Source of the DNA: a virus
IMG/VR virus record: IMGVR_UViG_3300017917_004521
Coordinates: 1-50,777 of that record
DNA: 50,777 nucleotides
Reading direction: 5' to 3' (one strand)
Both the position numbers and the translations under genes were made by a program. The notes under the pieces are model-generated. The model did not search any database, was not told where the DNA came from, and saw nothing but the letters and a program-made list of their open reading frames with translations. Shown here in pieces: positions 2,075 through 50,777 of this stretch. Numbering within the stretch: the stretch's first letter is position 1; every line of letters starts with the position of its first letter.

Positions 2075-2785
2075 ATGTTAGAACTACTAATTACACTAAT
2101 TTTTACACACATTACCATTGTATGTGTAACTCTATACTTACATAGAGGTCAAGCACATAGAGGTATATTATTTCATCCAGTGTTAAGTCATTTTATGCGA
2201 GCTTGGCTGTGGTTAACAACTGGCATGAATACCAAGGCATGGGTCGCAATACATCGAAAGCATCATAGATACTGTGAAACTAAAGATGATCCCCACAGTC
2301 CTTGGATACACGGCATCTGGCGTGTGGTATTCGGGGGTGCATTTCTTTACGCACAGGCCTCGAGAGATCGTTCAATGATTGAACAATATGGTGCAGGTAC
2401 ACCCGATGATTGGATAGAACGTCGAATTTATACCCCACATCCGTGGCTAGGCATAGCCCTTATGTTGATCATAGATCTTGTTCTTTTCGGATGGTGGGGA
2501 TTTTTAATCTGGGGTATTCAAATGATATGGATACCATTTTGGGCAGCGGGAGTCATTAATGGAATCGGACACTGGTACGGATATAAAAACGGATCTACTA
2601 GAGATCATAGTCGCAATATTAGTCCTTGGGGTATTCTTATTGGTGGGGAAGAGCTTCACAATAATCACCACCTGGATCCAGCAAGCCCTAAACTAAGTCG
2701 TCGTTGGTTTGAATTTGATCTAGGATGGCAATGGCTAAGGCTGTTTAGATTGTTGAGATTGGCTAAACTAAATATTAGATCATGA
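2075..2785 (+). CDS. Membrane fatty-acid desaturase (acyl-CoA/acyl-ACP delta-9 type)
   Basis: A 236-residue integral membrane di-iron desaturase with the three histidine boxes in order: HRGQAH (23-28), HRKHH (60-64) and HNNHH (195-199). The GGEELHNNHH context and the hydrophobic segments around 1-20, 40-50 and 130-165 are typical of stearoyl-CoA-desaturase-like enzymes. It would insert a double bond in an acyl chain using O2 and an electron donor, which is not encoded nearby. It is shorter than the usual roughly 300 residues, mostly in the N-terminal membrane part. It overlaps the peptidase gene by 4 nt, so the two are probably translationally coupled. It is separate from the desaturase cluster at 39.5-48 kb. 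Confidence 0.85.
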   Translation: MLELLITLIFTHITIVCVTLYLHRGQAHRGILFHPVLSHFMRAWLWLTTGMNTKAWVAIHRKHHRYCETKDDPHSPWIHGIWRVVFGGAFLYAQASRDRSMIEQYGAGTPDDWIERRIYTPHPWLGIALMLIIDLVLFGWWGFLIWGIQMIWIPFWAAGVINGIGHWYGYKNGSTRDHSRNISPWGILIGGEELHNNHHLDPASPKLSRRWFEFDLGWQWLRLFRLLRLAKLNIRS

Positions 2786-24125: not shown

Positions 24126-24157
24126 ACTTTTATTTAGTCGAAACCGTGATAAATCAG

Positions 24158-24186
24158 TTGACAGCGGTTTCGACATTGTCTATAAT
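24158..24186 (+). promoter_or_regulatory. Consensus promoter of the tmRNA gene, inside an inverted repeat
   Basis: TTGACA (24158-24163), 17-nt spacer, TATAAT (24181-24186), both perfect. The start should fall near 24193, just before the acceptor piece. An inverted repeat GTCGAAACCG/CGGTTTCGAC (24137-24146 and 24165-24174) flanks the -35 box and could be an operator. TATAATAAATA also contains an ATAAATA late-like motif. Confidence 0.85.
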
Positions 24187-24195
24187 AAATACTTG

Positions 24196-24475
24196 TTATT
24201 GCTGTATGAAGCAAAGAGAAAAGTGTCTTGGACGGGAGTTCGATTCTCCCCATCTCCACCGGAGAGCATTTACAGAAGTGTTCTGCGTTGGGGATGACTG
24301 GTTTCGACAGGGCAAAGAGTATTGAAGTGGACAGCACGGTAATGTGAAAACCGTTAGGATTGGGGTAACCCGGTCGAAGAAGCAAAACAACGTAAACGCA
24401 AACGACGAAAGATTTGCATTGGCCGCCTAAACTCGGCCTAGGGTAGGAAATACCTCGTAACAGAAAATACCAAAA
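24196..24475 (+). ncRNA. ssrA: Circularly permuted (two-piece) tmRNA
   Basis: Acceptor piece first: 24196-24260, with T-stem GGGAG/CTCCC, T-loop TTCGATT, acceptor strand CATCTCC and ACC at the 3' end. A 29-nt intervening segment (24261-24289) follows, then the coding piece from 24290. GGGGATG (24290-24296) pairs with CATCTCC over 7 bp, keeping the G3-U70 pair used by alanyl-tRNA synthetase. TGCTGT (24200-24205) pairs with ACAGCA (24331-24336). The tag frame (24398-24430) reads ANDERFALAA-stop, with GCA as resume codon. It rescues stalled ribosomes and tags the nascent protein. Permutation and tag type point to a betaproteobacterial origin. The encoded end lacks the final A of CCA. Confidence 0.92.
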
Positions 24476-24499
24476 AAGGCGTCTTTTGACGCCTTTTTT
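24472..24499 (+). terminator. Rho-independent terminator of the tmRNA
   Basis: Stem AAAAAAGGCGTC/GACGCCTTTTTT around a TTTT loop; the second arm ends in the T tract. Confidence 0.9.
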
Positions 24500-35741: not shown

Positions 35742-36280
35742 CACAGTGGGTAGATATGGTTAAAGAGGCATTACCTGAATATGCCAAAGACACAAAGTTG
35801 AATCTTGATGCGGTCATCAAGCGTTCGACACTAGATCCTGTAGAAGCAGAAGCCTGCGCCTTGGCCGCCCTTGTAGCAACTGGCAACGGTAAATTGCTTG
35901 CCTGGGTCCTAGCAAACACAGACCTGAACATTAAAACAGACACACAGGACAACGTTAAGGAACGCGATGCCGCTATGTGTGCCGCAAGTATTATGGCACA
36001 GAACAACGTGTGGTATCCCTATGTTGAAATGGCTGAAGATGAAAGCCTAAAAGGTTTACCTGCTCAATTGCGTATGAACGCCATTGCCACACACGGTGGT
36101 ACTACCAAGGCTCGATTCGAAGCCTACAGTCTTGCCGCAAGTATCGTTGGCAAGTGCCATTTCTGCGTAAAGGCACACTATGACACACTCAAGAAGGAAG
36201 GCTACACAGTAGAACAACTTCGTGACATTGGACGTATTGCCGCAGTGATAACCAGTGTTGCTAAAGTTTTAAATAGCTAA
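35738..36280 (+). CDS. ahpD: Alkylhydroperoxidase AhpD
   Basis: A 180-residue carboxymuconolactone-decarboxylase/AhpD-fold protein. The redox motif is C140-H-F-C143-x3-H147, and E128 lies 12 residues before C140, as in mycobacterial AhpD (E118/C130/C133/H137). The His at the position before the second Cys in that enzyme is Phe here, with a His one place earlier. It should reduce AhpC encoded 1.6 kb upstream in the same operon. It starts in an ATGA overlap. Confidence 0.87.
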   Translation: MTQWVDMVKEALPEYAKDTKLNLDAVIKRSTLDPVEAEACALAALVATGNGKLLAWVLANTDLNIKTDTQDNVKERDAAMCAASIMAQNNVWYPYVEMAEDESLKGLPAQLRMNAIATHGGTTKARFEAYSLAASIVGKCHFCVKAHYDTLKKEGYTVEQLRDIGRIAAVITSVAKVLNS

Positions 36281-36281
36281 T

Positions 36282-37448
36282 ATGAAAATAGCTATTATCG
36301 GTGCCGGTATTGCGGGTATTCTGCCCGCATACTATCTAGCAAAGCAGGGTTATCAAGTTCGTGTTTATGAGCAGGAACGATATCCTGCTATGAGAACTAG
36401 TTATGCTAATGGTGGACAGGTAAGCGTTAGCAATTCGGAAACTTGGAATTCATGGAGTAACATCATTAAAGGTGTTAAGTGGATGTTCAAGAAAGATGCT
36501 CCTTTGCTGATACGTCCAAGCCTTGATTGGGACAAGGCTTTATGGTTAACAAAGTTTTTATACCATACTGCTCTAAACGATCAAGTAAGAAATACTGTAG
36601 AGACCATTCGTCTAGGTATCGAAGCACGTAAACTGTACTTTGATATTATAAAAGAGGAAGGCCTAGAATTTGATCAAAGCTATTGCGGTATTCTACATTT
36701 CTATAAAGACAAACAGTATTTTCAAAATGCTGTTCAATCTAGAGAAATGTACGAAGGCCATGGCTGCGAATGGCAGTTACTCGGTCCCGAAGAAGTTTTA
36801 AAGATTGAACCCAAGCTAAGAAATAACCTTGGTATCATTGGGGGTGCCTGGACGCCCAGCGACTGGACTGGAGATATTCATAAATTTTGTGTAGAATTAG
36901 CCCGTATCTTAAAAAACAAATACAGAGTAGAATTCTTCTATGATGAAGAACCTGAAATAGATCTAGTTCTAGATTGGGCCGATCGAGTAGTTGTTGCGGC
37001 AGGAGTCGGTAGTGTAAAGCTGGCTAAAAAATTCAATGATCGTTTGCCGATTTACCCAGTTAAAGGTTACAGCATTACTATTTCTGCCAACGATGTAAAA
37101 TCTTACGAAGCCATGCCCAAGGTAAGTCTACTCGATGATCAAGCAAAAATAGTTACTAGTACACTGGGAACCCGTTTTAGAGTTGCCGGTACTGCTGAAC
37201 TTGCAGGCGAAAACTATGACATTCGAAGAGATCGAATTGAGCCGTTGATCAAATGGGTAGAAACTCATTTTCCTTCAATCTCTACTAAAGATTATACAAG
37301 CTGGGCTTGCCTACGTCCTATGACACCTAATATGTTGCCCATAGTCAAACAAGGAAATAATCCCAAGGTATTTTATCATACCGGACACGGACATCTAGGT
37401 TGGACACTGAGTCCGGCTACTGCAAAACGTCTAGTTAATTTAATGTAA
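36282..37448 (+). CDS. dadA: D-amino-acid dehydrogenase (DadA-like flavoprotein)
   Basis: A 388-residue FAD enzyme. The dinucleotide-binding start is IAIIGAGIAG (3-12). The DadA hallmark YANGGQVSVSNSE (about 45-57) follows, and the C-terminal FAD segment reads GHLGWTLSPATA. It oxidises D-amino acids to keto acids, feeding electrons to quinones. It is about 40 residues shorter than E. coli DadA. In a phage it could recycle D-Ala from peptidoglycan or affect wall synthesis. Starts one base after ahpD. Confidence 0.87.
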   Translation: MKIAIIGAGIAGILPAYYLAKQGYQVRVYEQERYPAMRTSYANGGQVSVSNSETWNSWSNIIKGVKWMFKKDAPLLIRPSLDWDKALWLTKFLYHTALNDQVRNTVETIRLGIEARKLYFDIIKEEGLEFDQSYCGILHFYKDKQYFQNAVQSREMYEGHGCEWQLLGPEEVLKIEPKLRNNLGIIGGAWTPSDWTGDIHKFCVELARILKNKYRVEFFYDEEPEIDLVLDWADRVVVAAGVGSVKLAKKFNDRLPIYPVKGYSITISANDVKSYEAMPKVSLLDDQAKIVTSTLGTRFRVAGTAELAGENYDIRRDRIEPLIKWVETHFPSISTKDYTSWACLRPMTPNMLPIVKQGNNPKVFYHTGHGHLGWTLSPATAKRLVNLM

Positions 37449-39494: not shown

Positions 39495-39515
39495 AAAAGG
39501 CCGAAAGGCCTTTTT
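39495..39515 (+). terminator. Rho-independent terminator
   Basis: Stem AAAAGGCC/GGCCTTTT with a GAAA tetraloop and a T run. It separates the stress operon from the desaturase operon. Confidence 0.85.
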
Positions 39516-39549
39516 CTACATCCCAATTATTTAGACATTAAATACGAGT

Positions 39550-40305
39550 ATGAATACTACCGCAAAATTTAAATTCCTTCATGTTTCTAATCATTTAGTA
39601 GGTCTATTGGGCATCTACCTAGCGGTAACATCGGAATCCTATTGGTGGTTTCTTTTAGGGGCGTTATGTTTTCTATGGACTGGCATTGTCGGTGTAAATG
39701 TGGCACTCCACAGATATTTTTCTCATCGTGCATTTAAGACAACGCCGTTTAAAGAAAAGATCTTACTATGGTCTAGTGTTTTTACAGGGTTAGGTAGTCC
39801 TGCAATGTGGTGCTCTATACATCGTATGCATCATACACACAGCGATACTGACAAAGATCCTCATAATCCTCGACAATACGGAATTTTAAAAACTTGGTTC
39901 ACCATGTGGCCACATAAATCTATTCCTAAAAGATTCTTTGTTCCGTTTGTTAAAGATGACACAATGAGATTTATTCATAATCATTATTTTGCTATCAATT
40001 TTGTAACACTGATTTTATTGGCTGCAATTGATATTAGACTAGCAGCCTTTGCCTACTGTTTACCAGCTGTAGGCTGTTTTCATGGTGCATCGGCTATAGG
40101 AGTCATACCTCATTATTGGGGGTATCGAAATTATAGCGTTAACGATCAGAGCCATAATAATTGGCTTGCATCTATTTTAAGTCTAGGAGAAGGATGGCAT
40201 AATAATCATCATGCGAATCCCGGACGCTGGTGGCAAGGTGAGAATTGGTGGGAATTTGATCCTCCTGCCTTTATGATCAAACATTTTTTTATAAAGACAG
40301 AATGA
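39550..40305 (+). CDS. Membrane fatty-acid desaturase 1 of the cluster
   Basis: A 251-residue membrane di-iron desaturase. Histidine boxes are HRYFSH (54-59), HRMHH (91-95) and HNNHH (about 218-222, in GEGWHNNHH). Hydrophobic spans lie at about 15-50, 70-90 and 150-185. The DTDKDPHNPRQ stretch after box 2 is typical of delta-9 acyl-CoA/ACP desaturases. It is the first of three tandem, overlapping desaturase genes; an ACP gene lies in the facing operon, so acyl-ACP is a plausible substrate. No sigma-70 promoter is evident in the short upstream gap. Confidence 0.9.
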   Translation: MNTTAKFKFLHVSNHLVGLLGIYLAVTSESYWWFLLGALCFLWTGIVGVNVALHRYFSHRAFKTTPFKEKILLWSSVFTGLGSPAMWCSIHRMHHTHSDTDKDPHNPRQYGILKTWFTMWPHKSIPKRFFVPFVKDDTMRFIHNHYFAINFVTLILLAAIDIRLAAFAYCLPAVGCFHGASAIGVIPHYWGYRNYSVNDQSHNNWLASILSLGEGWHNNHHANPGRWWQGENWWEFDPPAFMIKHFFIKTE

Positions 40306-41024
40306 CTGCCCTCTCTAGATATATCTTATTGGTAAATGTTCCAGTAATACTAATCTCATTATTACTTCCCTTTACAAATTTTATCACTTATTCCACGCTG
40401 GCATATTTTTTTGTATTTTTCTTTTGTATATATTGGGTTTCGGGAAATTTCTATCATTTGTACTGGAGCCACAGACAGTTTATTACAACCCCTCTTTTTG
40501 AAAAAATAACAGCTCTTCTTGGTCTATTTGTAATGGTCGGAGATCCTATCAACTATGTGAAAACACATCGTTGGCATCATGCCCATAGTGACACTGACAA
40601 AGATCTTCATAGCCCTGTACATGGAAGAATTCATAGTTTAATCGGATGGATGTTTAAAGATGTTTCGCTGCCGTTATTTGGTGTTAGAGATATAGTTAAT
40701 AATTCTTACCTAAATTTTTTAGCTCAACATCAAATAAAAATTATATGGTTAACACTTGTTCTTGTATTTGCAATTGATCGATCAATGTTTTCTGCATTGA
40801 TCTATACAATGGTTTTGGGATTCAGTTTAGAAATGATAACTAATGCATTCGCACATAGTCCGTATTCTAAATCTGCTAAAAACAATTATGTATTAGCATG
40901 GCTCTGCTTATCTACGTTGCATAGAAATCATCACAGTGATCCTAAGATCTCAAATTTAAACGATCCTTGGAGATTTATTAAAAGGCTGTTGATATTTTTG
41001 AAATTAATTAAAGAAAAAACATGA
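40302..41024 (+). CDS. Membrane fatty-acid desaturase 2 of the cluster
   Basis: A 240-residue desaturase. Boxes are HLYWSH (52-57), HRWHH (89-93) and HRNHH (about 210-214). Box 3 is HRNHH instead of the HNNHH of its neighbours, and box 1 lacks the usual H-R, so it is a divergent paralogue that may have another regio- or chemo-specificity (second double bond, acetylenase or hydroxylase). It overlaps both desaturase neighbours by 4 nt. Confidence 0.88.
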   Translation: MTALSRYILLVNVPVILISLLLPFTNFITYSTLAYFFVFFFCIYWVSGNFYHLYWSHRQFITTPLFEKITALLGLFVMVGDPINYVKTHRWHHAHSDTDKDLHSPVHGRIHSLIGWMFKDVSLPLFGVRDIVNNSYLNFLAQHQIKIIWLTLVLVFAIDRSMFSALIYTMVLGFSLEMITNAFAHSPYSKSAKNNYVLAWLCLSTLHRNHHSDPKISNLNDPWRFIKRLLIFLKLIKEKT

Positions 41025-41803
41025 ATTGGTACTTTTATAAAATATGGATCCCACTACAGATATTGACAGTTGCTGCCTTTGTTGCATTGGGGTTAGGTCT
41101 CTATACTGTTAATTGGTGGGTAGTTTTTATTGCTTGGTTTTTAATCGGTCCGGTTGGAACAGGTGTAGGCTACCATCGACTGTTTAGCCATAGGCAATTT
41201 TCTACATGGAAACCGGTAGAATACGTTATTGCTTTTTTAGGTACACTGGCCGCTTATGCACCTGTATTGTTTTGGGCCAGTCAACATCAATATCATCATA
41301 CTGTTGCAGACACAGAAGACGATCCTAGCAGCCCTAAGATCTATGGATTCTGGGAAAGTTTTTTATGGTGGCGAATGCGACAAAGTGTTCTTAAAAAAAT
41401 TGATCTTCGATGCCCTCCAATTCGGATGTTATTAAAAGATAAAGTTTTAATGTTTTTTAGCAAACAGTTTACCAAGATCGTTTATACCACGGTAATTTTA
41501 CTAGCTGTTATTGATATCAATCTATTGATCAGTCTGTTTATTATTCCTGTGTTCATTGAGCACATGCGGGTAAATGCAGTCAGTAGTTTAAGTCATATCA
41601 ATGTTCCGTTTAGTTATAAAAATTTTGAAACTCGGGATCAAGGTCAAAATAATATACTTTTTGGTTATATAACCTGTGGATTCGGGTGGCACAACAATCA
41701 TCATGCTTTTCCTCGCAAACTAGACAACCGCGAACGTTGGTGGGAATTAGATATTGAGGGAATTATTGCTAGGGCATTGTCAAAAAAATCAAATGTTCAT
41801 TGA
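41021..41803 (+). CDS. Membrane fatty-acid desaturase 3 of the cluster
   Basis: A 260-residue desaturase. Boxes are HRLFSH (52-57), HQYHH (89-93) and HNNHH (about 225-229, in GFGWHNNHH). The His of box 2 is preceded by SQ rather than a hydrophobic residue. Membrane spans are at about 10-50, 68-88 and 155-185. It overlaps the previous gene by 4 nt and the aminotransferase gene by 11 nt, so the whole group should be one translationally coupled operon. Confidence 0.9.
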   Translation: MNWYFYKIWIPLQILTVAAFVALGLGLYTVNWWVVFIAWFLIGPVGTGVGYHRLFSHRQFSTWKPVEYVIAFLGTLAAYAPVLFWASQHQYHHTVADTEDDPSSPKIYGFWESFLWWRMRQSVLKKIDLRCPPIRMLLKDKVLMFFSKQFTKIVYTTVILLAVIDINLLISLFIIPVFIEHMRVNAVSSLSHINVPFSYKNFETRDQGQNNILFGYITCGFGWHNNHHAFPRKLDNRERWWELDIEGIIARALSKKSNVH

Positions 41804-42617
41804 TCAATCTAAATATCTCCCCTTTGCTAAGGTAACTCCTATTAGATTGCCCAACGTGATGGAATCAATAAAAAGACATCACAGGTACGAAACAGCTGAT
41901 TTAAAGTATCTAGAAGATGTTTTTAGGCAGTGGTATTCACCTTTAGTGAATCTTGAGGCATTTCCTTATATGTATTTTTTGAATAATGGAATTACACAAG
42001 GCCTTGAATACCTTTCAATACACTATAAAAGTAAAGATATTAAAATGCTGCTGGGGGACTATTTCTGGCTTAAAACTTTAGGAGTTGCTCAAGAAGTTCA
42101 AGAACCCGTGCCCTGTGATATCAGTTACTCTTCTTTGCCTAGTGCAAGAAATGGATCAATGGATTCAGTTATCTGGGATAGTCGAATGCATATATTGGAC
42201 GGTGCTTATATAGGAACATCTACAATAAAAGCAGAACTTCCGACAAATACTGAAATCTTATTGTTAGGTTTTAGTAAAAATCTCGGAATACCAGAAATGA
42301 GATTAGGTCTAATGTTATCTAAAAACAAAATTCCGACACTCGAAGGTATACAAAAGATTTTTAACTACGTAGGAACTATTGGATTCAGAACTGCCGCAAA
42401 AGTGTGTGAAGAAATACCTATCATAACTCTTGCTGAATCTCTCAAAACAGTGCAAAATAAGTATTGTAGAGTTTTTCCAGAATACGAACTCGATCCAGCT
42501 GACAGTGCTTTGTTAGCGATTACAGAAAATACTAAATTTAATTTTTATAAAAGGCCCGACGGAACAATACGTGTTCCATTAGGGGAAAGTATAACAAAAT
42601 GGCTGACCCAATTATAA
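41793..42617 (+). CDS. Compact PLP-dependent aminotransferase-like protein
   Basis: A 274-residue protein from ATG 41793. Fold-type-I features: NNGITQG (65-71, cofactor phosphate loop), D136-x2-Y139 (DGAY), the Schiff-base lysine K162 in GFSKNLGIPEMRLG with R170, and a C-terminal I-R-V-P-L substrate strand. At 274 residues it is much shorter than the roughly 400 of aspartate aminotransferase, mainly at the N-terminus and large domain. It may transaminate a keto acid or act on a bound acyl or aminoacyl group. The assignment is strong for the fold, weak for the reaction. Confidence 0.75.
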   Translation: MFIDQSKYLPFAKVTPIRLPNVMESIKRHHRYETADLKYLEDVFRQWYSPLVNLEAFPYMYFLNNGITQGLEYLSIHYKSKDIKMLLGDYFWLKTLGVAQEVQEPVPCDISYSSLPSARNGSMDSVIWDSRMHILDGAYIGTSTIKAELPTNTEILLLGFSKNLGIPEMRLGLMLSKNKIPTLEGIQKIFNYVGTIGFRTAAKVCEEIPIITLAESLKTVQNKYCRVFPEYELDPADSALLAITENTKFNFYKRPDGTIRVPLGESITKWLTQL

Positions 42618-43786
42618 TCGTTGATCCTGTTAGATATACAGGTTATAGTTACATAACTACAATTAAAAAAAGAGTAAACCATAGCAAACTCATTGCTTTA
42701 TGGACTTCAGAAGCTGCTAGAGAATTAAACACCGACGCCAATAATCTTGTCGATGAAGAAATTTTTTCTAACGACTTCGACGAAACTATTGCAGAAATTG
42801 GAAATCAAAAACCGAGATGCGTACTAGTCGGTAGCGATACAGGGTTTCCACTTGCAGACAAACTGCAAATGCATTATCATCCTAAAAAATCAAATGATCC
42901 CTCTTTGCATCAATATAGAATAGATAAATTTTCTTATTTTAATTATTTGAAAGACCGGGGATTAATTCATACTTCGCAGGCATTGGTAACACACGATAAC
43001 CTGTCAGAGTTTGATCCAACAAAAAAATACGTTGTAAAACCAATAGACGGGCAAGGCAATGATAATACTTTTATTACAGATAACATAGCACAATTAAACT
43101 TAACAAAGTTTAAAGATAAATTTATGATTCAAGATTATATCGATGGTCCTGAATATTGTATCGAAGTATGCACCAATGACGGAGATCATAAATGTACTAT
43201 GGCCAGTATCTATAAAGGTGATCACATGGTTGACTTGAATCCGTGGAGAGAAGAAAATGAATTAATTTCTCATACGGATCCTGTAGTACAAGTTTTATTT
43301 GATTATATAAAACCTATTCTCACTGCACTAGGTGTTAAAATAGGTGTAACTTGGTCTCAAATAAAAATAGAGAACGGTGTTCCTCATTTAATTGAAATTA
43401 ATTTTAGATCTCAAGGTCATGGGTTAATGACTCCTATTCAATTATCCACCGGTATCAATTGGGTGTCAGAAACTCTAAAAAGTTATTTGAATCTTGTGCA
43501 ACCTGTTTATAAAGGTATTGCCTACAAAAAGATAGGTGAATTTAATAAAGTTTCTATAAACAATAGACAAGAAAAATACATGGATTATTTGCCTATCGAA
43601 GATATACAATTACTAGAGTCGGTTTATTTTATTGCGGTAGCTGATCGAATGTTCCCAGGAATTGTTCCTGTTTCAAGAAGTGTAAGAACAACAATGGGTA
43701 GCATTATAGTTCATAATACAGATAGCGTTAAGTATAAAGAAGATATGGAAAAAATTAATCAGTGGAAAGAAAAAGTAGGAAATTAA
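42599..43786 (+). CDS. ATP-grasp ligase
   Basis: A 395-residue ATP-grasp protein. The nucleotide-binding parts are K143/K147 with the glycine-rich PIDGQGNDN (148-156) and the QDYIDGPEY segment. The metal-binding triad is IEINFR (E266, N268, R270). Such enzymes join a carboxylate to an amine, as in L-amino-acid ligases and carnosine-synthase-like enzymes. The GQG loop and the spacing fit that group. It probably couples an amino acid to a carboxylate made by its neighbours. Strong ribosome site AGGGGAAAG; overlaps the previous gene by 19 nt. Confidence 0.87.
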   Translation: MADPIIIVDPVRYTGYSYITTIKKRVNHSKLIALWTSEAARELNTDANNLVDEEIFSNDFDETIAEIGNQKPRCVLVGSDTGFPLADKLQMHYHPKKSNDPSLHQYRIDKFSYFNYLKDRGLIHTSQALVTHDNLSEFDPTKKYVVKPIDGQGNDNTFITDNIAQLNLTKFKDKFMIQDYIDGPEYCIEVCTNDGDHKCTMASIYKGDHMVDLNPWREENELISHTDPVVQVLFDYIKPILTALGVKIGVTWSQIKIENGVPHLIEINFRSQGHGLMTPIQLSTGINWVSETLKSYLNLVQPVYKGIAYKKIGEFNKVSINNRQEKYMDYLPIEDIQLLESVYFIAVADRMFPGIVPVSRSVRTTMGSIIVHNTDSVKYKEDMEKINQWKEKVGN

Positions 43787-43790
43787 AATA

Positions 43791-44432
43791 ATGATTATTT
43801 CTAACGAACAAAATTTTAAATTAGATAGAACAGATTTTATGTATCCCTGTCAGTTAGAAAAAATAACTGATGGTGAATTTGTAGTTAAACAATATTCCAC
43901 GGTCTATGGATTTGTGCTAAACGGAACTGTAGAAATTAATGAAAATAAAATTATGAAAGAACACGAGTTCTTTTCTTTTAATTTCATGTATGCATCTAAA
44001 ATAAAAGTTAATGGTACAGCCGTTGTGATAACACGATACGGTTTTAATGGTCAAAATGTATTTGGCGGCCCTGTAGAAAAACAAGGGCGTCTTTGCTATA
44101 TCAATAACTGCTCTGATAGTCTACTAGTTTATCCGCCAAGAATGGGTGATCCTAGCATGAGTCTTTTGCATTTTCCACCAGGAATTGTACAGGATTTTCA
44201 TACACATCCTAGTTTTAGATTAGGTATTATTTTTAGAGGAAAAGGCTATGCTGAATCTAAAGAAAATAGATATGACCTAACTCCTGGGTGTGTGTTCTGT
44301 ATGGAAGAACAAGAAGTACACAGGTTTGTCACTGAAGGCAATCAATTAAGTGTAATTTCGTTCCACCCAGACGGCGACTGGGGGCCGACCGATCAAAATC
44401 ATACACTTTTAAATAGAACTTACCTAAAATAA
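43791..44432 (+). CDS. Cupin-fold metalloprotein
   Basis: A 213-residue double-cupin-like protein. The C-terminal cupin holds H137-T-H139 in motif 1 (PPGIVQDFHTHPSF) and E175 or E173 with H177 in motif 2 (MEEQEVHRF); these would bind Fe, Mn or Ni. The N-terminal half looks like a degenerate cupin. It could be an oxygenase, an epimerase or a sensor. It ends one base from the convergent gene, with no visible terminator. Confidence 0.75.
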   Translation: MIISNEQNFKLDRTDFMYPCQLEKITDGEFVVKQYSTVYGFVLNGTVEINENKIMKEHEFFSFNFMYASKIKVNGTAVVITRYGFNGQNVFGGPVEKQGRLCYINNCSDSLLVYPPRMGDPSMSLLHFPPGIVQDFHTHPSFRLGIIFRGKGYAESKENRYDLTPGCVFCMEEQEVHRFVTEGNQLSVISFHPDGDWGPTDQNHTLLNRTYLK

Positions 44433-44433
44433 T

Positions 44434-44883
44434 TTAGTAGTGATCGAAGAATGCTTCTACCATTATGTAATCAGATAGAACATCGGTAGGAACATCGGCT
44501 TCAATTTTTTTTATCTCAGCTTGAATCTTTAAAAGTTGATTTAGCGATTCTCGTTTAGATTGATGTGTTATGTAAACATCAGAGGTTGATAATCGATCAT
44601 GAGGTTCTTTGTTCATGAATCCTTGAACTGTGTAAACAATATTAGAGTCTTCTTTTTCTAAGAAGTTATAGATAAAATTAGTATCTGCTATTAGATAATC
44701 TCTAAAGTTAGTTACTGATTCGATCCAGGTATCGAATATTTCTTTATCATAATAAGAAGGATTAATAAAATGAGTTCCGTCTTCTTTTAGATTATTACTT
44801 CTGCTGATTTCAGCCATGGTAATGAAATTTAAATATCTAGCATCTTGCTCTAAAGGTGTCCATTTTGTAATAACTAAAAACAT
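44434..44883 (-). CDS. Unknown protein at the end of the minus-strand operon
   Basis: A 149-residue acidic/helical protein starting at 44883, preceded by AGGAGA. The N-terminal strand FLVITKWTPL and a mid-part with many Asp/Asn/Tyr residues suggest a small alpha/beta fold. No motif of a known enzyme is seen. It is the last gene of the biosynthetic-type operon and may have a binding or tailoring role. Confidence 0.6.
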   Translation of the reverse strand: MFLVITKWTPLEQDARYLNFITMAEISRSNNLKEDGTHFINPSYYDKEIFDTWIESVTNFRDYLIADTNFIYNFLEKEDSNIVYTVQGFMNKEPHDRLSTSDVYITHQSKRESLNQLLKIQAEIKKIEADVPTDVLSDYIMVEAFFDHY

Positions 44884-44899
44884 TTATTTTCTCCTAACC

Positions 44900-45532
44900 T
44901 TATTTATGTCTCAACTCGTTGTTAAGAACTAACAACAAAATTGCAAGATTTCTGTGATATATCGGATTTATTAATGTTTTGAGATTAATAAATTTAAATG
45001 AATCTATATCTTCCTGACAGGTAATTAATTTTTCTACATATACACTATATCTATCAGAGAAATAAGGAGACAGAGATTTACGTTGATACCGACTCCAGTT
45101 TTCCTTAGTAATTCTATTAGATATTCTAATTGCTATATGAAATGAATTGTAATGAAGACTTTCAAAATGCTCGCTCAATATATCAGTGATTTTATTCAAT
45201 TTGTTATTAGGGTTACCGTTGAGCATTTCTTCTGTAAAGGTTAGTCCGAGCACCCAGGTAGGCATGGGCTTTGTTGGAGAATTCCATGCTACCTGAAATG
45301 TATAACCTACAGCAACTCCGGTTATTTTATTATCTGTAAATTCGCCTGCAACAGCAAAATTTTCTAAATTATCTCTAGTAAAAGACTGTAGATAGAACCG
45401 ACATTTTTTCTCCATCTGTTCGTACAGATAGTTTCGATTGTTTGTTGTTTTTTCGTAGGCCAGAAACTGTTTTAAAATTTGACTAAAAATTTTTTGATCT
45501 TTATCTGGATCTAATAAACGATAAGTTTTCAT
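44900..45532 (-). CDS. GNAT-like protein, activity unproven
   Basis: A 210-residue protein starting at 45532. The middle (NLENFAVAGEFTDNKITGVAVGYTFQVAW) resembles a GNAT beta-hairpin core, and a helix-rich N-terminus precedes it; the expected acetyl-CoA loop R/Q-x-x-G-x-G/A is not clear. It overlaps the next upstream gene by 4 nt. Two other GNAT-like proteins occur in this operon, so a related acyltransferase is likely. Confidence 0.5.
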   Translation of the reverse strand: MKTYRLLDPDKDQKIFSQILKQFLAYEKTTNNRNYLYEQMEKKCRFYLQSFTRDNLENFAVAGEFTDNKITGVAVGYTFQVAWNSPTKPMPTWVLGLTFTEEMLNGNPNNKLNKITDILSEHFESLHYNSFHIAIRISNRITKENWSRYQRKSLSPYFSDRYSVYVEKLITCQEDIDSFKFINLKTLINPIYHRNLAILLLVLNNELRHK

Positions 45533-46113
45533 CTTTTTCTTTTATAGCAGGATAAAATATCTTTGTACGGAACATTAAATCCATAGGTAAACAAATATCT
45601 ATTTTTAGTATCATCTAAAGATATTACGTCGTGTATGCACGATGTGTCTAATAGATAGGCATGATTATCTTTACAGGTAAAAGGTTTAGCCTGTGACTCA
45701 AAAAGATTGTCGTCTCGAGTCGATGATGTTCTGGTAACAGCAATGTCGGAATTTTTAATACCGATATTAATACAGCATTGCCTGTTTGATTCGTCGAAGT
45801 GTGGTAGAACAGATCCGTTTGTTTTTAACAGCCCCACTCGTTGATAATCAAACTTTATTATATAGAATAAAGAAGTCAGATACTCTGTAACATACTTGGC
45901 CAGCCCTGGATGTTCTAGATATAATTTTCTAACAAATGAGATTGCACCATATTTTGATCTATCTAGCTGATATTCGGTCCAATACAACGATGTAGGATTA
46001 TCCTCCATACTATTACCGTAAGTATGTTTATATATCGGTAAAGACTCGAATATAGAGAGATCGAATCCCTCTGGAAGAACAAAATTGTTATCTAATTCAA
46101 AAAATCCATTCAT
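45529..46113 (-). CDS. 2-oxoglutarate/Fe(II) oxygenase-like protein A
   Basis: A 194-residue protein with the facial triad of this superfamily: H105-F-D107 (LPHFDES) and H161 (SCIHDV), with R172 (NRYLF) placed to bind 2-oxoglutarate. The size fits small aspartyl-beta-hydroxylase or prolyl-hydroxylase-like enzymes. It should hydroxylate a C-H bond of a small-molecule or carrier-bound substrate. It overlaps both neighbours by 4 nt and is one of three consecutive oxygenases. Confidence 0.75.
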   Translation of the reverse strand: MNGFFELDNNFVLPEGFDLSIFESLPIYKHTYGNSMEDNPTSLYWTEYQLDRSKYGAISFVRKLYLEHPGLAKYVTEYLTSLFYIIKFDYQRVGLLKTNGSVLPHFDESNRQCCINIGIKNSDIAVTRTSSTRDDNLFESQAKPFTCKDNHAYLLDTSCIHDVISLDDTKNRYLFTYGFNVPYKDILSCYKRKR

Positions 46114-46757
46114 CCGTCAACCCTTTGTAGAAAATTTAAATGATCTATACTTTCTAATGTACCTCGCACCACTATTGCAACTCTAGACCTATTTCCTTCA
46201 ACAGGAACTCGATGGGGGTACCATCGAGAATCTAGGCAGAATACTGTGTTCTTTCTCATAGGCTTGATTGCGTATATTTGATCTTCAACCATGTGATTTT
46301 CTATTTTTTTTAGTTCCAACGCATGTTGTTGAAATTCTGGTTTAATCCTTGCCTGCTCTAAAAATGTTTTAGCTGTGTCCAGTCCGAAACAGATTCGAAA
46401 TCCCATTGGATTATCTTTATCAAAATGAAAATTAAAATCGTACTCTGGTTGGGTTTCTTGAAATAACATTAGAACCAGCCTGTTATTATCATTGTTTTTG
46501 ATCGGAAGACTTTCTATAATTTGATAAATTTTATCAAAATACTCAAGGCGATTGTAATTATGAAACAGTTTTCCGTCGTACTCAAGTAATCTTCTATCCC
46601 AAGGGTATTTTCGATTGTTTCTTTGAAAATATATTTCTTCTTCTTTAGAATGTCCTAACCTTACATGTTCGTCGGCGGTGTTTTTAATAAATGATTTTAA
46701 AACATCAAATGGAATATCCGGAACTTCGATGTTAACTTCTCCGTAGATCAGGGCCAT
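46110..46757 (-). CDS. 2-oxoglutarate/Fe(II) oxygenase-like protein B
   Basis: A 215-residue protein. The triad is H111-F-D113 (NFHFDKD) and H182 (WYPHRV), with R190/R192 (NRSRVAI) as co-substrate ligand. The core matches the double-stranded beta-helix pattern of small non-haem oxygenases. It overlaps both neighbours, 10 nt upstream and 4 nt downstream. The substrate is unknown; an acyl- or aminoacyl-carrier substrate would fit the setting. Confidence 0.78.
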   Translation of the reverse strand: MALIYGEVNIEVPDIPFDVLKSFIKNTADEHVRLGHSKEEEIYFQRNNRKYPWDRRLLEYDGKLFHNYNRLEYFDKIYQIIESLPIKNNDNNRLVLMLFQETQPEYDFNFHFDKDNPMGFRICFGLDTAKTFLEQARIKPEFQQHALELKKIENHMVEDQIYAIKPMRKNTVFCLDSRWYPHRVPVEGNRSRVAIVVRGTLESIDHLNFLQRVDG

Positions 46758-47383
46758 TGTTCTTCTCTCAATTCTTTAAAACAATCTTTATGCACATCTA
46801 ACAACAGAATAGATCTCGTATTTTGTCCGTTATGTTCTGTTCCGTGAAATGCATCACCGTCACTGAATGCAAACACTTTACCTGGCTCCCAAGTTCGAGG
46901 AGGTAAATCTTCTATAAAAAACACAGCGCCCGGGTCGCAGTCTATGCCCATATGAATTCGGATGTAGTCGTTACACATACCGTAATGTTTGTTTAATTTT
47001 GCACCAGGGTGTATTACATTAAATCCAACAGTACCGACAAATTCTAAGTAGGGTTCTAGGCAACGTTCTAAATTAGGAGTTAGTTTTTGTTTAATTTTAA
47101 AATTTTCTAAAGCACGTTTTCTACTAGCCTCTGTAGATCCGTATATAGCGTCTAGCTCCGGCTTAGAACACGATTCGTCTGCGATTCTAGTAAACACCAA
47201 CTGAAATCCGCCCTGATATAAAATTTTACCATTAGAAAGCCCTTGTCGAGCAGTCATTAGGTTATTAGGCTTAACATGTAAAAATTGTTGTGATAGCTGA
47301 TAAAAATCTTGACGTATTAATTCATAGTTTTCTTTTAGGCTATGCACTAATGCAAAGTCGGAAACATCAATATATTTTTTCAT
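46748..47383 (-). CDS. Aspartyl/asparaginyl beta-hydroxylase-family protein
   Basis: A 211-residue protein with the Asp/Asn beta-hydroxylase pattern: HPGAKLNKHYGMCNDYIRIHMGI (H133, R142, H144), PGKVFAFSDGDAFHGTEHNG with H180/H184, and R190 in NTRSILLLD. In this family His-His coordinate iron and Arg binds 2-oxoglutarate. It is the most confidently placed of the three oxygenases. Ends one base into the previous gene. Confidence 0.83.
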   Translation of the reverse strand: MKKYIDVSDFALVHSLKENYELIRQDFYQLSQQFLHVKPNNLMTARQGLSNGKILYQGGFQLVFTRIADESCSKPELDAIYGSTEASRKRALENFKIKQKLTPNLERCLEPYLEFVGTVGFNVIHPGAKLNKHYGMCNDYIRIHMGIDCDPGAVFFIEDLPPRTWEPGKVFAFSDGDAFHGTEHNGQNTRSILLLDVHKDCFKELREEQWP

Positions 47384-48174
47384 TATTTTAAGAAAGGCAA
47401 AAATAATTTACAAGGATCAAATTCCCACCATTTTCCGCTCACTGATGTTCCGAAATCAAAACTTTTAGGATCATAGTGATGATTGTTATGCCATCCTTGT
47501 CCCCAACCTAGCAGTCCTAAAATAAAATTATTTTGAGATCGATCAGATGTATTAAAATTTCGATATCCTATAAGTGCTTTAGTATGACCGTAGACATTGG
47601 TTAAATTATCTTGTAATAGTGTAATAGCAGTAGGAAGGCAAATTAAGGCAAGACTTAATTTCCAGTCAATTAATGCTATTAGCGCGGGAATCGACCATAG
47701 CAGCGTTAATTGGTGATTATGAAACCATAGGTGGTTAGATTTCCTAAGAAGCCCGGCTGCGTATTTTAAATTTACATTAGGATTAGCTTCAGTGATTTTT
47801 GTCGACCAACCGAAAAACGCATGATAAAATCCCTTTGTCGGACTGTGTAGATCTTTTTCGGTATCGGCATATCTATGATGGTAACCTCTGTGTATAGCTA
47901 CCCAAGTAATACTAGAACCTTGACCACTTAGGATTCCACAAAATAATATAAAATTTTCTTTCCATCTAGGAAGACTGTCGTGTGTATTATGTGCAAATAT
48001 TCTATGGTATCCTACAGCAACTCCTAGACCTGCGATCAGTACCCATCCAATAAAAGTAAAAATCAAATACCATGAAGGAATAATTCCAAGGGCAAACAAT
48101 ATTACTGAAATAGCACCTAAGGTGAGAAAAGGTACAAAACTTAGCCAGGAATACTTTGATATATTTTTAAACAT
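47383..48174 (-). CDS. Membrane fatty-acid desaturase 4 of the cluster
   Basis: A 263-residue desaturase, the only one on the minus strand. Boxes are HRIFAH (57-62), H95-R-G-Y-H99-H100 and HNNHH (in GQGWHNNHH). Box 2 has three residues between the first His and the HH pair, against two in the other four; this is allowed in the superfamily but unusual. Hydrophobic spans at about 10-55, 72-95 and 150-190. It sits between a GNAT and an oxygenase, supporting a biosynthetic rather than a plain membrane role. Confidence 0.88.
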   Translation of the reverse strand: MFKNISKYSWLSFVPFLTLGAISVILFALGIIPSWYLIFTFIGWVLIAGLGVAVGYHRIFAHNTHDSLPRWKENFILFCGILSGQGSSITWVAIHRGYHHRYADTEKDLHSPTKGFYHAFFGWSTKITEANPNVNLKYAAGLLRKSNHLWFHNHQLTLLWSIPALIALIDWKLSLALICLPTAITLLQDNLTNVYGHTKALIGYRNFNTSDRSQNNFILGLLGWGQGWHNNHHYDPKSFDFGTSVSGKWWEFDPCKLFLPFLK

Positions 48175-48189
48175 AGCAATATTTAATGA

Positions 48190-48789
48190 TTACAAACGAC
48201 CGGCGTTGAAAAGCTCTTCTCTATATTGTTGTTTTAAAAATGTACACCGTACTATGGTATCTGTTGGAACCAATATTCTGTTGTATAAGATTTGCCAATG
48301 AAAGTTAAACTTGCATCGATGTTTCTCAGGAACATAGTACTCATCAAAATAATCATATCTTTCGCTGCTTTTTTGACTGAACGCTAATCTTCTATAGAGC
48401 CGCTGATATTCTAACGGAAACATACTAAAAAATTTTAGTCTGCCCTGTTTTTCGTTGTGATCGATCACAGCATCTAATGTTGCCTGTATTTCTTTTCTGT
48501 TCTGCCCTGTAGTACGTATTTGATTCCAATACCAACTGGCATCTTCGTCAGATTGATAGAATCCTAGGGCAGTATTGACTTTTCCGTCACTGCCGATGCA
48601 TCCGTATGCATGGTAGTTCTTTAATCCCGACATGTATGTTTCTATGAATACATTGTAGTAAAGTTCTGAAAATTCAAACTGCTTATCAACAAAATAGCTT
48701 TTATCAACATCGACTCCCATAAATTTAGGTTTCTTGAACAGATCTTTAATTTTAGATTTATGTTTTTCTTCTAGTTTAACAATTTTCAT
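48190..48789 (-). CDS. GNAT-type acyltransferase-like protein
   Basis: A 199-residue protein. It opens with MKIVKLEEKHKSKIKDLF, the typical first strand and helix of GNAT proteins. The core continues with YGCIGSDGKVNTALGFYQS and a long helix NRKEIQATLDAVIDHNEKQG. GNAT proteins that use acyl-ACP make N-acyl amino acids, and an ACP gene is nearby. Overlaps the PP-loop gene by 4 nt. Confidence 0.65.
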   Translation of the reverse strand: MKIVKLEEKHKSKIKDLFKKPKFMGVDVDKSYFVDKQFEFSELYYNVFIETYMSGLKNYHAYGCIGSDGKVNTALGFYQSDEDASWYWNQIRTTGQNRKEIQATLDAVIDHNEKQGRLKFFSMFPLEYQRLYRRLAFSQKSSERYDYFDEYYVPEKHRCKFNFHWQILYNRILVPTDTIVRCTFLKQQYREELFNAGRL

Positions 48790-49703
48790 TTTCGACCTTT
48801 TAGTTGCTTAATCACTGCATTGTAGGGAATTCCGTCGAGGCTGGGTTCTAGCCTAAGTATTTGTTCTCCGGCTAATTCTCTATATGCTTCGAGATTGAAT
48901 GCCAGTAGTTTTTCAAACCCGTGAGTTTTCTTTCTTACACGGATTTCAGGCAGCAGTCTTTTAAGTACTGAATTTTTTGTACTAACTGATGATAATTTAT
49001 AATTCATCTTTTCTGAAACCAACGATTTAATATCAGGATCTTCTAAATAATACAGTAGCAGTTCGGGTGTGTAGCTAAAATATTCGTTGACCAACGGTAT
49101 ATTAAATGTATTACTGAACCTCATTGCACTAGCATCTTCGTTTTCTCGTATTGTGTAATACCAATTACTTGGCTGTTCGTAGATGTTTCTTGTAATAAGA
49201 GCCTCGCCGCCCATAACAGCAGGCGCCCCAAATTTTTCTACACAATGATATACCATTAGATAGGTTAATTGTGTACATTGAATTTTACGTCCAAAATCGT
49301 CAGCTTGACCACTATACAAAAAATCCTTGACATCGAAATCAATGATGTTTAATTTTATTTCTAGGTCTTCGGCTAGAGACTGCGCTTCTGTAACGTCGGA
49401 TAGATTATAATCATTTTTAAATTTGATAGTGACACACTGAGGTTTAATTCCTATGTCTAGAAAATTTCGAAGAACAATTTCACTGTCTGTTCCACCGCTG
49501 AGAAACACAACTAGATCTTTTCCAAGATCCTGATAGATAAGGTCTGCGGTTCTAAGTAACTCCTCTCTAAAGTTACTGCGTTTATAGTGATCTCGATCTA
49601 CGGAACCTACAGTTACCTTATAGGGCTCAATTGAATTTTCTCGAAATCCAAATTCTCTGCCCCCTATGGTATACTTTAAATGATTCCTATAGGTAAAATT
49701 CAT
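48786..49703 (-). CDS. Asparagine-synthase-like PP-loop ATPase
   Basis: A 305-residue protein with the pyrophosphate-loop SGGTDS (69-74) and a following V-x-x-K-F-like region, as in the C-terminal synthetase domain of asparagine synthase B, beta-lactam synthetase and lasso-peptide cyclases. It lacks the N-terminal glutaminase domain (no Cys2), so free ammonia or a different amine may be used. It would adenylate a carboxylate to form an amide or ring. It is coupled by 4-nt overlaps to the ACP gene upstream and the GNAT gene downstream. Confidence 0.83.
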   Translation of the reverse strand: MNFTYRNHLKYTIGGREFGFRENSIEPYKVTVGSVDRDHYKRSNFREELLRTADLIYQDLGKDLVVFLSGGTDSEIVLRNFLDIGIKPQCVTIKFKNDYNLSDVTEAQSLAEDLEIKLNIIDFDVKDFLYSGQADDFGRKIQCTQLTYLMVYHCVEKFGAPAVMGGEALITRNIYEQPSNWYYTIRENEDASAMRFSNTFNIPLVNEYFSYTPELLLYYLEDPDIKSLVSEKMNYKLSSVSTKNSVLKRLLPEIRVRKKTHGFEKLLAFNLEAYRELAGEQILRLEPSLDGIPYNAVIKQLKGRK

Positions 49704-49918
49704 TGCATCAGGCCCATGAGATCTCGGACAGTTATAGGCGAATCATCAGATTCGATTATAGTTTCGTATTCATCTTCATAGTACATTTGTAGTTCTACAA
49801 TATCTAACGAGTCTAAACCGAGGTCTAGCAATTTATCATCGGGCTTGATCTTAATATTTCTTTCAAACAGATGTTCAACTGCTGATTCTATAAATTTAAT
49901 TTTTTCTGTATCCTTCAT
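49700..49918 (-). CDS. Free-standing acyl carrier protein
   Basis: A 72-residue, very acidic protein. The phosphopantetheine site is LGLDSLDIVEL with Ser37, the usual DSL motif, followed by helix III and a short C-terminal helix. It would carry acyl or aminoacyl thioesters; in the host or phage, a phosphopantetheinyl transferase must activate it. Its position in a desaturase/GNAT/PP-loop operon suggests a dedicated carrier, not a spare copy of the fatty-acid AcpP. Confidence 0.92.
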   Translation of the reverse strand: MKDTEKIKFIESAVEHLFERNIKIKPDDKLLDLGLDSLDIVELQMYYEDEYETIIESDDSPITVRDLMGLMQ

Positions 49919-49919
49919 G

Positions 49920-50453
49920 TTATCCTCTCTTTAATTCCGCAACGTATTGCTCAGTATAGTTTACAATCTTTTTCCCGATTGGTGTAAACTGTCTATACAT
50001 TTCGGGCCACGGGTTAAACAATCCTGCCGATCTGTTATTAGACATGTTTACAAATGCCTGATAAATTGCTTTGTTATATTCATTACAGGTTATCCATAGT
50101 TTTGAATAATCTTTTGACTCTTCTATGATCCTCGGCATCAACAATTCGGCCATAAGATACTTTGTTCTAAATTTCTCTACAATATATGCTCTAGTCAATG
50201 CAAGTGCTGTATCTTCGGTATACGGGTTCCAGCCTGCACTGCCCACATATTCATCATTTTTTTTGATGATGTAATAATTGCCTTTGAGGTATCTTCCTTC
50301 TTTTAAAATACGGAATAAATTACCAGGTACAGTTTCGTAATCTGGATGATAGTTTTTTATTAAATCTTGTTCGCTGACCTGTCTCAGGCCTTCTTTTAAA
50401 AATTCTATCAAATCAGTATCGGAGTTATCTCTGATGCTGTAAACAGTAAACAT
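49920..50453 (-). CDS. GNAT N-acetyltransferase-type protein
   Basis: A 177-residue protein. The sheet and turn YYIIKKNDEYVGSAGWNPYTEDTA, the strand ALALTRAYIVEKFRTKYLMAEL (with the acyl-CoA-binding R-x-K/R-Y turn) and the helix NEYNKAIYQAFVNMS follow the GNAT plan. It may transfer an acyl group from CoA or from the ACP encoded just downstream. The gap to the FkbM-like gene is 39 nt. Confidence 0.72.
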   Translation of the reverse strand: MFTVYSIRDNSDTDLIEFLKEGLRQVSEQDLIKNYHPDYETVPGNLFRILKEGRYLKGNYYIIKKNDEYVGSAGWNPYTEDTALALTRAYIVEKFRTKYLMAELLMPRIIEESKDYSKLWITCNEYNKAIYQAFVNMSNNRSAGLFNPWPEMYRQFTPIGKKIVNYTEQYVAELKRG

Positions 50454-50492
50454 ATCTAAGGTATTCTTAAAATTAAGGAAACTTTTAAAACC

Positions 50493-50777
50493 TTATGTCC
50501 GACGGAAGTGTACATCGACTTCTTGAAGAGGTTGCTCAAACCAAGCTTCAAATCCCTGCGATTCGAGCCATTGTTTAATTTCAAAGGCATTATTATCTTT
50601 TGTTTTATACAATTCTACAGTATGGGCGGCTTCGCACTTTCCTTCCTTTATTAGAGAAATTTTTTCTCCTAAACTTTTGAGAACATTAAAATCGCTGCCT
50701 TGGGCGTCAATCCAGAGATAATCGACTTCTCCTATATTATGCAGATTGAAAAATGTATCAAGGCGCATGGTCATAAC
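50493..50777 (-). CDS. FkbM-family methyltransferase, N-terminus cut off
   Basis: The last 94 residues of a gene that continues beyond the window edge. The segment MRLDTFFNLHNIGEVDYLWIDAQGSDFNVLKSLG matches the post-SAM part of FkbM methyltransferases (T-L-D-x-x...I-D-x-x-K-I-D-x-Q-G-x-E...V-L-K-G). The SAM-binding part lies outside. FkbM enzymes O-methylate sugars and natural products, which fits a biosynthetic operon. Confidence 0.75.
   Translation of the reverse strand, partial: VMTMRLDTFFNLHNIGEVDYLWIDAQGSDFNVLKSLGEKISLIKEGKCEAAHTVELYKTKDNNAFEIKQWLESQGFEAWFEQPLQEVDVHFRRT

Follow-up and report, generated by a model that had tools for sequence, protein, structure and literature searches.

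What would a phage make with four desaturases, a carrier protein of its own and two kinds of ligase? The question is raised by the IMG/VR record IMGVR_UViG_3300017917_004521, a viral contig of 50,777 nt (called the window, at its full length), which carries two convergent operons of such genes at positions 39550-50777. At a probability of roughly 0.5, we read this cluster as a T4-like phage's own dedicated biosynthetic pathway, the product of which, made late in infection, would be an oxidised acyl-amide metabolite or lipid. A biosynthetic role, as the initial annotation had proposed, is supported by an acyl carrier protein (ACP) with an invariant serine, a holo-ACP synthase (AcpS) gene within the operon of a related locus (L015), a ligase of an amide-forming type, oxidative enzymes, purifying selection and late-promoter motifs.

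The core module is conserved and restricted to phages

A search of IMG/VR with the PP-loop ligase of the cluster returned 22 loci, and a family profile subsequently yielded 78. Synteny was counted in the 66 ligase loci whose flanks both reach 3 kb or more, some of which are near-duplicates, and the counts do not represent independent events. The ligase gene is adjoined by the gene for a GNAT-fold transferase (GNATa) in 65/66 loci, and a desaturase gene is located within 2.5 kb of it, again in 65/66 (48 downstream and 17 upstream). A second GNAT-like gene (GNATb) near the core (41/66) and an ACP gene beside it (27/66) were observed solely in the downstream-desaturase type. The median ratio of nonsynonymous to synonymous substitution rates (dN/dS) in close pairs is 0.075 for the ligase (16 pairs), 0.075 for GNATa (23 pairs) and 0.056 for the desaturase (21 pairs), which indicates purifying selection on all three; the ACP value of 0.35 comes from one usable pair only. 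The core is a conserved, selected, phage-encoded enzyme module.

The ligase family has no match in 50,697 cultured-phage records. A degenerate-pattern scan of 84,980 bacterial and archaeal genomes gave no confirmed ligase, the pattern being strict enough to leave room for distant bacterial relatives, and neither the ligase nor GNATb has a hidden Markov model (HMM) match in 398 Pseudomonadota genomes. A bacterial origin of the ligase was rejected on these negative scans, and plasmids yielded one weak MnmA-type match only. Many independent viral contigs show the core alongside phage genes; the cluster is therefore phage-borne, as first annotated, and an assembly chimera with host DNA is ruled out. 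These results strongly support a phage-restricted core composed of an asparagine synthetase (AS)-like ligase, a GNAT-fold transferase and a membrane di-iron desaturase, to which an ACP of the phage and a second GNAT are often added. The gene set is common to uncultured T4-like phages, was absent from all the cultured-phage and bacterial genomes searched, and looks like a pathway for an unusual acylated small molecule or lipid in infected cells.

The ligase has a predicted asparagine synthetase-like fold

The ligase comprises 305 residues and corresponds to a synthetase domain alone, with no N-terminal glutaminase domain. Its Pfam matches to QueC and Asn_synthase are weak. The AlphaFold2 (AF2) model, with a mean predicted local distance difference test score (pLDDT) of 89, is closest in VIA-align to human ASNS, beta-lactam synthetase and carbapenam synthetase (Z 15.5, 14.8 and 14.2, respectively), with approximately 240-250 residues aligned at 3.4-3.9 Å; the next group, the sulfurtransferase LarE, follows at Z 10.7. 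This agrees with the asparagine-synthase-like enzyme named by the initial annotation. Five residues of the SGGxDS nucleotide motif (S69, G70, G71, D73 and S74) are invariant in 17 ligase sequences. In a search of predicted viral structures, the only relatives were uncharacterised proteins of uncultured Caudovirales (best TM score 0.83) and proteins named 'asparagine synthase'. An assignment as QueC, 7-deazaguanine or tRNA-modifying enzyme was rejected: the HMM matches are weak, and the fold comparison places the AS and beta-lactam synthetases first and QueC far below. Amide formation is the commonest chemistry in the AS/beta-lactam synthetase family, and a shared fold alone is no proof of it. 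From the modelled fold, we infer that the ligase may form amides.

Carrier protein and GNAT-fold transferases

The ACP is free-standing, with an intact Ser37 in a PP-binding domain, as had been noted at the outset. This serine of the DSL motif is invariant across seven aligned sequences with 36-54% identity. In L015, an AcpS gene (L015:12320-12664), which scores 71.5 bits on TIGR00556 where 45.35 is the cut-off, begins at the end of the core desaturase gene and is followed by a second PP-loop gene, while the ACP gene (L015:13922-14164) lies on the opposite strand from AcpS. This in-operon AcpS, recognised from its sequence, is the best evidence that carrier-protein chemistry would belong to the pathway, and it lends indirect support to modification of the ACP with phosphopantetheine in vivo. 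The phage ACP is not obligatory, because large contigs exist with the core and without an ACP.

GNATa has no Pfam match. Its AF2 model (pLDDT 79) matches the GNAT fold in VIA-align (Z 15.1, 153 residues aligned, 2.7 Å), in line with the initial naming of GNAT proteins. GNATb is assigned more weakly, by an Acetyltransf_1 match at E 0.038 only. No relationship between GNATa and GNATb was detectable.

Desaturases and the alkyne/polyyne alternative

All five desaturase-like proteins in the window keep three His boxes. The four at the cluster bear out the initial count: FA_desaturase matches were found for des1, des3 and des4, and des2, which has no Pfam match, shares a PHROG match with the others. 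In a FastTree phylogeny, des1 groups with the desaturases of L102 and L008, and the phage desaturases stand mostly apart from the bacterial ones among the matches listed, the bacterial sample being pattern-biased and many deep forks open. Two sets of comparison loci were discarded. Plasmid desaturase loci examined as polyyne yardsticks proved to be ordinary desaturase loci, and the desaturase of Acinetobacter phage MD-2021a sits among bacterial genes. The MD-2021a stretch (CAKLQH020000002, 46246-64905; L267) carries trpB, baeS, btuB and others around the desaturase and looks bacterial.

Free ACP together with several desaturases had been taken as the core of an alkyne/polyyne pathway, in which an ACP-bound fatty acid would be desaturated to a terminal alkyne by JamB-like enzymes. 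The window ACP is indeed in the same operon as des4 and near several desaturases, and one related locus (L197) contains four desaturases in a row. However, the conserved set is the AS-like ligase, a GNAT and one desaturase; most relatives have a single desaturase, and the ACP is often missing, as the counts above show. JamA is an acyl-ACP synthetase (PMC4356899), and no AMP-binding gene of the JamA or fatty acyl-AMP ligase type was found at the cluster in the window or in 47 relatives, so that the alkyne/polyyne reading fails its clearest test. PF00501 is absent from the window and present in two of the 48 records, tens of kilobases or more from the core. Although the window contig itself is cut, relatives with both flanks likewise have no acyl-ACP synthetase. 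We consider an alkyne or polyyne product very improbable.

Accessory enzymes and a second module

Three 2-oxoglutarate (2OG)-type proteins were recognised, as initially described: AspH by a clear Asp_Arg_Hydrox domain (PF05118), and 2OGa and 2OGb, which have no Pfam match, by an HxD motif with a later His in each. The AspH-2OGb-2OGa trio occurs in the same order in L064. The ATP-grasp protein matches the NF005543 and DdaF models at scores below their cut-offs and is related to L-amino acid ligases in the PDB; the Pfam matches in Table 1 agree with the early assignment of this protein, of the cupin and of the FkbM methyltransferase, the gene of which is cut by the contig end. A pattern scan of viral contigs for ATP-grasp returned nothing and was insensitive, since tblastn within the loci of relatives did find ATP-grasp genes. 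The cupin family occurs in 66 viral loci, mostly without the module.

The protein first annotated as a pyridoxal phosphate (PLP)-dependent aminotransferase-like enzyme has no Pfam, NCBIfam or PDB match as a single sequence. Four other viral loci (L196-L199) encode proteins with 53-60% identity to it, and the Asp, Tyr, Lys and Arg residues of its motifs D..AY and SKN..G....R.G are invariant in five relatives. The family profile matched aminotransferases and 1-aminocyclopropane-1-carboxylate (ACC) synthases in the PDB at the expected Lys region, with E values of 0.5-0.9 that are not significant. The invariant motifs would fit a fold-type I enzyme; the first assignment, which is motif-based, is weak. 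The start at ATG 41793 was chosen over TTG 41754.

A second module was observed in L197 (739-8000) and L199 (600-6558), comprising a ligase paralogue (profile-profile probability 100%), orf210, four desaturases, 2OG-like genes and the PLP-like gene; L197 adds an ATP-grasp gene and an orf149 homologue adjoining a tail-fibre-like gene. Because this module repeats the series from ligase paralogue through orf210 and four desaturases to the putative PLP and ATP-grasp genes, the window holds most of it (des1-des3, PLP-like, ATP-grasp, orf210 and orf149) convergent with the core module. A homology of orf210 to GNATa was tried and rejected (hhalign not significant). The second module of L197 is preceded by a gene that reads as Rieske-oxygenase-like.

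The hydroxylase brings an aminolipid into consideration. As an aminolipid or outer-membrane lipid modification, an amino-acid-containing lipid or a lipid A-like one might be made or remodelled, which would alter the envelope of the host at a late stage, perhaps to fend off superinfection; by an ornithine-lipid-like logic, N-acylation from acyl-ACP would be followed by 2-hydroxylation and desaturation. The closest models to AspH are LpxO and OlsC, PF05118 proteins recur close to the core in relatives, the desaturases belong to the membrane, the cluster encodes an ACP and GNATs, and aminolipid N-acyltransferases use acyl-ACP (PMC11631085). However, AspH scores 22-26 bits against LpxO and OlsC cut-offs of 450-500, and Pfam detected neither a PF13444 N-acyltransferase nor a PlsC/OlsA-type O-acyltransferase among the cluster proteins. 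We also know of no role for an AS-like ligase in aminolipid pathways, which counts further against this reading. An aminolipid product seems unlikely to us.

Neighbours of the core in other phages include several 2OG families, TauD, radical S-adenosylmethionine (SAM) enzymes, cupins, PP-loop paralogues, methyltransferases and epimerases. In one phage, a tryptophan-halogenase-like gene (PF04820, E 5e-89) lies less than 8 kb from the core. Approximately 18 loci have an IscU/NifU-type Fe-S scaffold gene near the cluster (e.g. L015:5487-5867), and proteins that read as TctC/Bug-type periplasmic solute-binding-like are encoded near it in 15 loci (e.g. L077:17824-18738). The TctC/Bug-type family is typical of Burkholderiales.

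Phage identity and predicted late expression

Full-length T4 Gp23 capsid protein (PF07068) was found in seven relatives, including the L102 contig that also bears the cluster; no Gp23 was found in the window fragment itself. The NrdA protein is closest to those of Xanthomonas and Stenotrophomonas phages. The window encodes a transfer-messenger RNA (tmRNA) with the tag ANDERFALAA, and similar tmRNAs occur in many relatives; the RF01850 cut-off was exceeded in 11 of the 33 records searched, window included. The host is probably a betaproteobacterium, judging by the betaproteobacterial type of this tmRNA.

The T4-type late motif NWTAAATA is enriched 5' of genes in the relatives and sharply positioned. 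It precedes 37 of 90 desaturase genes, compared with 350 of 1998 ORFs overall (17.5%), the relatives not being independent. Among 1737 unique upstream regions, the motif starts 12-15 nt 5' of the ATG in 134 cases, with a peak at 13. In the ORFs of L006-L027 and L058-L114, a Shine-Dalgarno-like site was observed in only 3/140 genes with the motif at 10-16 nt, compared with 72/115 with the motif at 24-36 nt. By T4 spacing, a distance of 13 nt would place the transcription start at the ATG, and the late mRNAs, including those from window positions 39537-39544 and 48180-48187, are predicted to be leaderless. The exact sequence TATAAATA has no occurrence in the window against 5.5 expected, yet it is the most enriched motif 5' of the relatives' genes; the window phage seems to use late-motif variants other than TATAAATA. 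The motifs suggest that the cluster is wired into the phage's own late programme, at least partly through late promoters.

Such timing would also suit virion assembly, and the enzymes might modify the virion, a phage or host protein or a surface glycan, for example by decorating tail fibres, with no free metabolite. Several contigs, and the pelagiphage Mosig too, have the module close to tail genes or structural genes, and glycan clusters likewise contain GNAT, 2OG, FkbM, cupin, epimerase and glycosyltransferase genes. An ACP, an AcpS and membrane desaturases nevertheless sit awkwardly with the modification of proteins, Pfam detected neither a glycosyltransferase nor a sugar-nucleotide gene in the window's cluster, and no target is evident. 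On balance, a modification of this kind is improbable. DNA base modification was also considered; the ACP and membrane desaturases argue against it.

Layout of the cluster

The plus-strand operon runs des1-des2-des3-PLP?-ATP-grasp-cupin, and the minus-strand operon FkbM (cut)-GNATb-ACP-ligase-GNATa-des4-AspH-2OGb-2OGa-orf210-orf149 (Table 1). Start and stop codons overlap by 1-19 nt at most junctions. The ORFs, their overlaps and the Pfam, PHROG and NCBIfam matches agree with the two convergent, overlapping operons of listed enzymes first described. Upstream, on the plus strand at 33587-37448, lies a compact metabolic block of AhpC/TSA, TerC, class II aldolase, GDSL lipase, CMD/AhpD-like and FAD-dependent oxidoreductase (DAO) genes.

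Table 1. Features of the cluster and associated elements in the window.
Feature	Position	Strand	Evidence and remarks
Intrinsic terminator, between upstream AAA gene and des1	39495..39514	+	8-bp G+C-rich hairpin and U-run, -11.6 kcal/mol, z -4.7
T4-type late promoter motif ATTAAATA	39537..39544	+	13 nt 5' of des1 ATG; des1 without Shine-Dalgarno
des1, membrane fatty acid desaturase-like	39550..40305	+	PF00487 E 2e-17; three His boxes
des2, divergent desaturase-like	40302..41024	+	His boxes; phrog_35201; orthologue in L197 and L199 at 39%
des3, desaturase-like	41021..41803	+	PF00487 E 2e-19
Putative small PLP-dependent (aminotransferase-like) enzyme	41793..42617	+	Motifs; relatives in L196-L199
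ATP-grasp ligase, L-amino-acid-ligase/DdaF-like	42599..43786	+	PF02655; PDB L-amino acid ligases E 3e-9
Cupin protein	43791..44432	+	PF02311, PF07883
orf149, no assigned function	44434..44883	-	Homologue adjoins tail-fibre-like gene in L197
orf210, no assigned function	44900..45532	-	Homologue between ligase paralogue and desaturases in L197 and L199
2OGa, 2OG/Fe(II) oxygenase-like	45529..46113	-	HxD...H
2OGb, 2OG/Fe(II) oxygenase-like	46110..46757	-	HxD...H
AspH/LpxO/OlsC-type hydroxylase	46748..47383	-	PF05118 E 8e-16 (Asp_Arg_Hydrox)
des4, core desaturase	47383..48174	-	PF00487
T4-type late promoter motif ATTAAATA	48180..48187	-	13 nt 5' of des4 ATG
GNATa, GNAT-fold transferase, core	48190..48789	-	AF2 model, GNAT fold; ligase neighbour in relatives
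AS-like (PP-loop) ligase, core	48786..49703	-	AF2 fold match; SGGTDSE motif
Acyl carrier protein	49700..49918	-	PF00550; Ser37 in DSL; 4-nt overlap with ligase gene
GNATb, GNAT-like	49920..50453	-	Weak PF00583
FkbM-type methyltransferase, cut by contig end	50493..50777	-	PF05050 E 2e-12
des5, fifth desaturase-like gene, away from cluster, membership uncertain	2075..2785	+	
Permuted betaproteobacterial-type tmRNA, host clue outside pathway	24144..24499	+	RF01850 E 5e-46

Proposed pathway

In the biosynthetic pathway that we favour, an acyl or aminoacyl group would be carried on the phage ACP, through 4'-phosphopantetheine on Ser37, or on host acyl-ACP. The prosthetic group would be added by host AcpS or, in L015, by the phage AcpS. 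The AS-like enzyme would adenylate a carboxylate and convert it to an amide, as beta-lactam and asparagine synthetases do, and the GNATs may move acyl groups onto amines. The desaturases would unsaturate or hydroxylate the chain at the membrane, the 2OG and AspH enzymes would hydroxylate, and the ATP-grasp, PLP-like and FkbM enzymes may attach amino-acid, amino or methyl groups. This gene content would accommodate an acyl product joined to an amino acid or amide.

Several points weigh against the proposal. The whole case is drawn from genes, with product, substrate and activity predicted. The ligase residue K259, in the motif RKKTHGFE, is invariant in the 17 sequences but is not matched residue by residue to the catalytic lysine of the AS family, and an hhalign alignment of the ligase to AsnB spans the PP-loop half only, at low probability, and ends before K259. 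PF13444, the acyl-ACP N-acyltransferase signature, is absent from all cluster proteins at E values up to 0.1. No ACP is found beside the core in 39/66 loci, and a carrier-bound intermediate may therefore not be essential. The assignments of orf210 and of the PLP-like gene are uncertain.

A wider proposal, which we advance tentatively and hold to be possible rather than probable, is that T4-like phages evolved a phage-exclusive small-molecule or lipid pathway of their own, with no bacterial counterpart, switched on late, the product of which acts on the host envelope, rival phages or the virion. Such a pathway would consist of the AS-like ligase, a GNAT and a desaturase, optionally with its own ACP and AcpS, and would be elaborated by 2OG, radical SAM and ATP-grasp enzymes. 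If so, acyl/amide chemistry of their own would be at work in dozens of uncultured T4-like phages, beyond what they borrow from host metabolism. The cluster offers a new enzyme family and, in five genes, a cassette open to testing, and it could reveal a new class of natural product or a membrane change during infection.

Comparison with known systems

The phage ligase resembles the AS-like synthetases (AsnB/ASNS, beta-lactam and carbapenam synthetases) in predicted fold and in the SGGxDS ATP motif. In contrast to them, it has no glutaminase domain and no detectable full-length sequence similarity, and its family turned up solely in phage contigs in the present searches. JamABC and polyyne clusters share with the phage cluster a free-standing ACP beside membrane desaturases, whereas the phage cluster has no acyl-ACP synthetase, has the AS-like ligase and GNATs as partners, and treats the ACP as optional. 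The ornithine-lipid and aminolipid pathways (OlsB and OlsC) offer a possible analogy in acyl-ACP N-acyl transfer and a PF05118 hydroxylase; they differ in that the phage GNATs are not PF13444 proteins, no O-acyltransferase was seen, and AspH lies far below the OlsC and LpxO cut-offs.

Biosynthetic clusters carried by phages are described as rare and mostly bacteriocins on temperate phages (Dragos et al. 2021, as cited in PMC10452541), a likeness to the present cluster in phage carriage but, as far as that citation goes, not in kind. PMC10452541 reports that antiSMASH detected no biosynthetic clusters in 153 cyanophages. No description of the present cluster was found in the open-access literature. 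The initial statement that no such phage cluster is known holds for the collections searched, but it needs qualifying for a cultured phage, Pelagibacter phage Mosig EXVC030M (MT647606), which next to its tail fibres carries genes of the AspH, desaturase, aminotransferase, TauD, GNAT and radical SAM kinds but not the ligase. The Mosig genome announcement makes no mention of the AspH, desaturase, aminotransferase, TauD or GNAT genes. Unlike the window, this marine SAR11 phage gave no match to the AS-like ligase, the stretch of it that was read has no ACP annotation, and its desaturase is 27% identical. With its oxidative and transferase genes gathered beside the tail fibres, Mosig is the nearest cultured parallel to the phage cluster.

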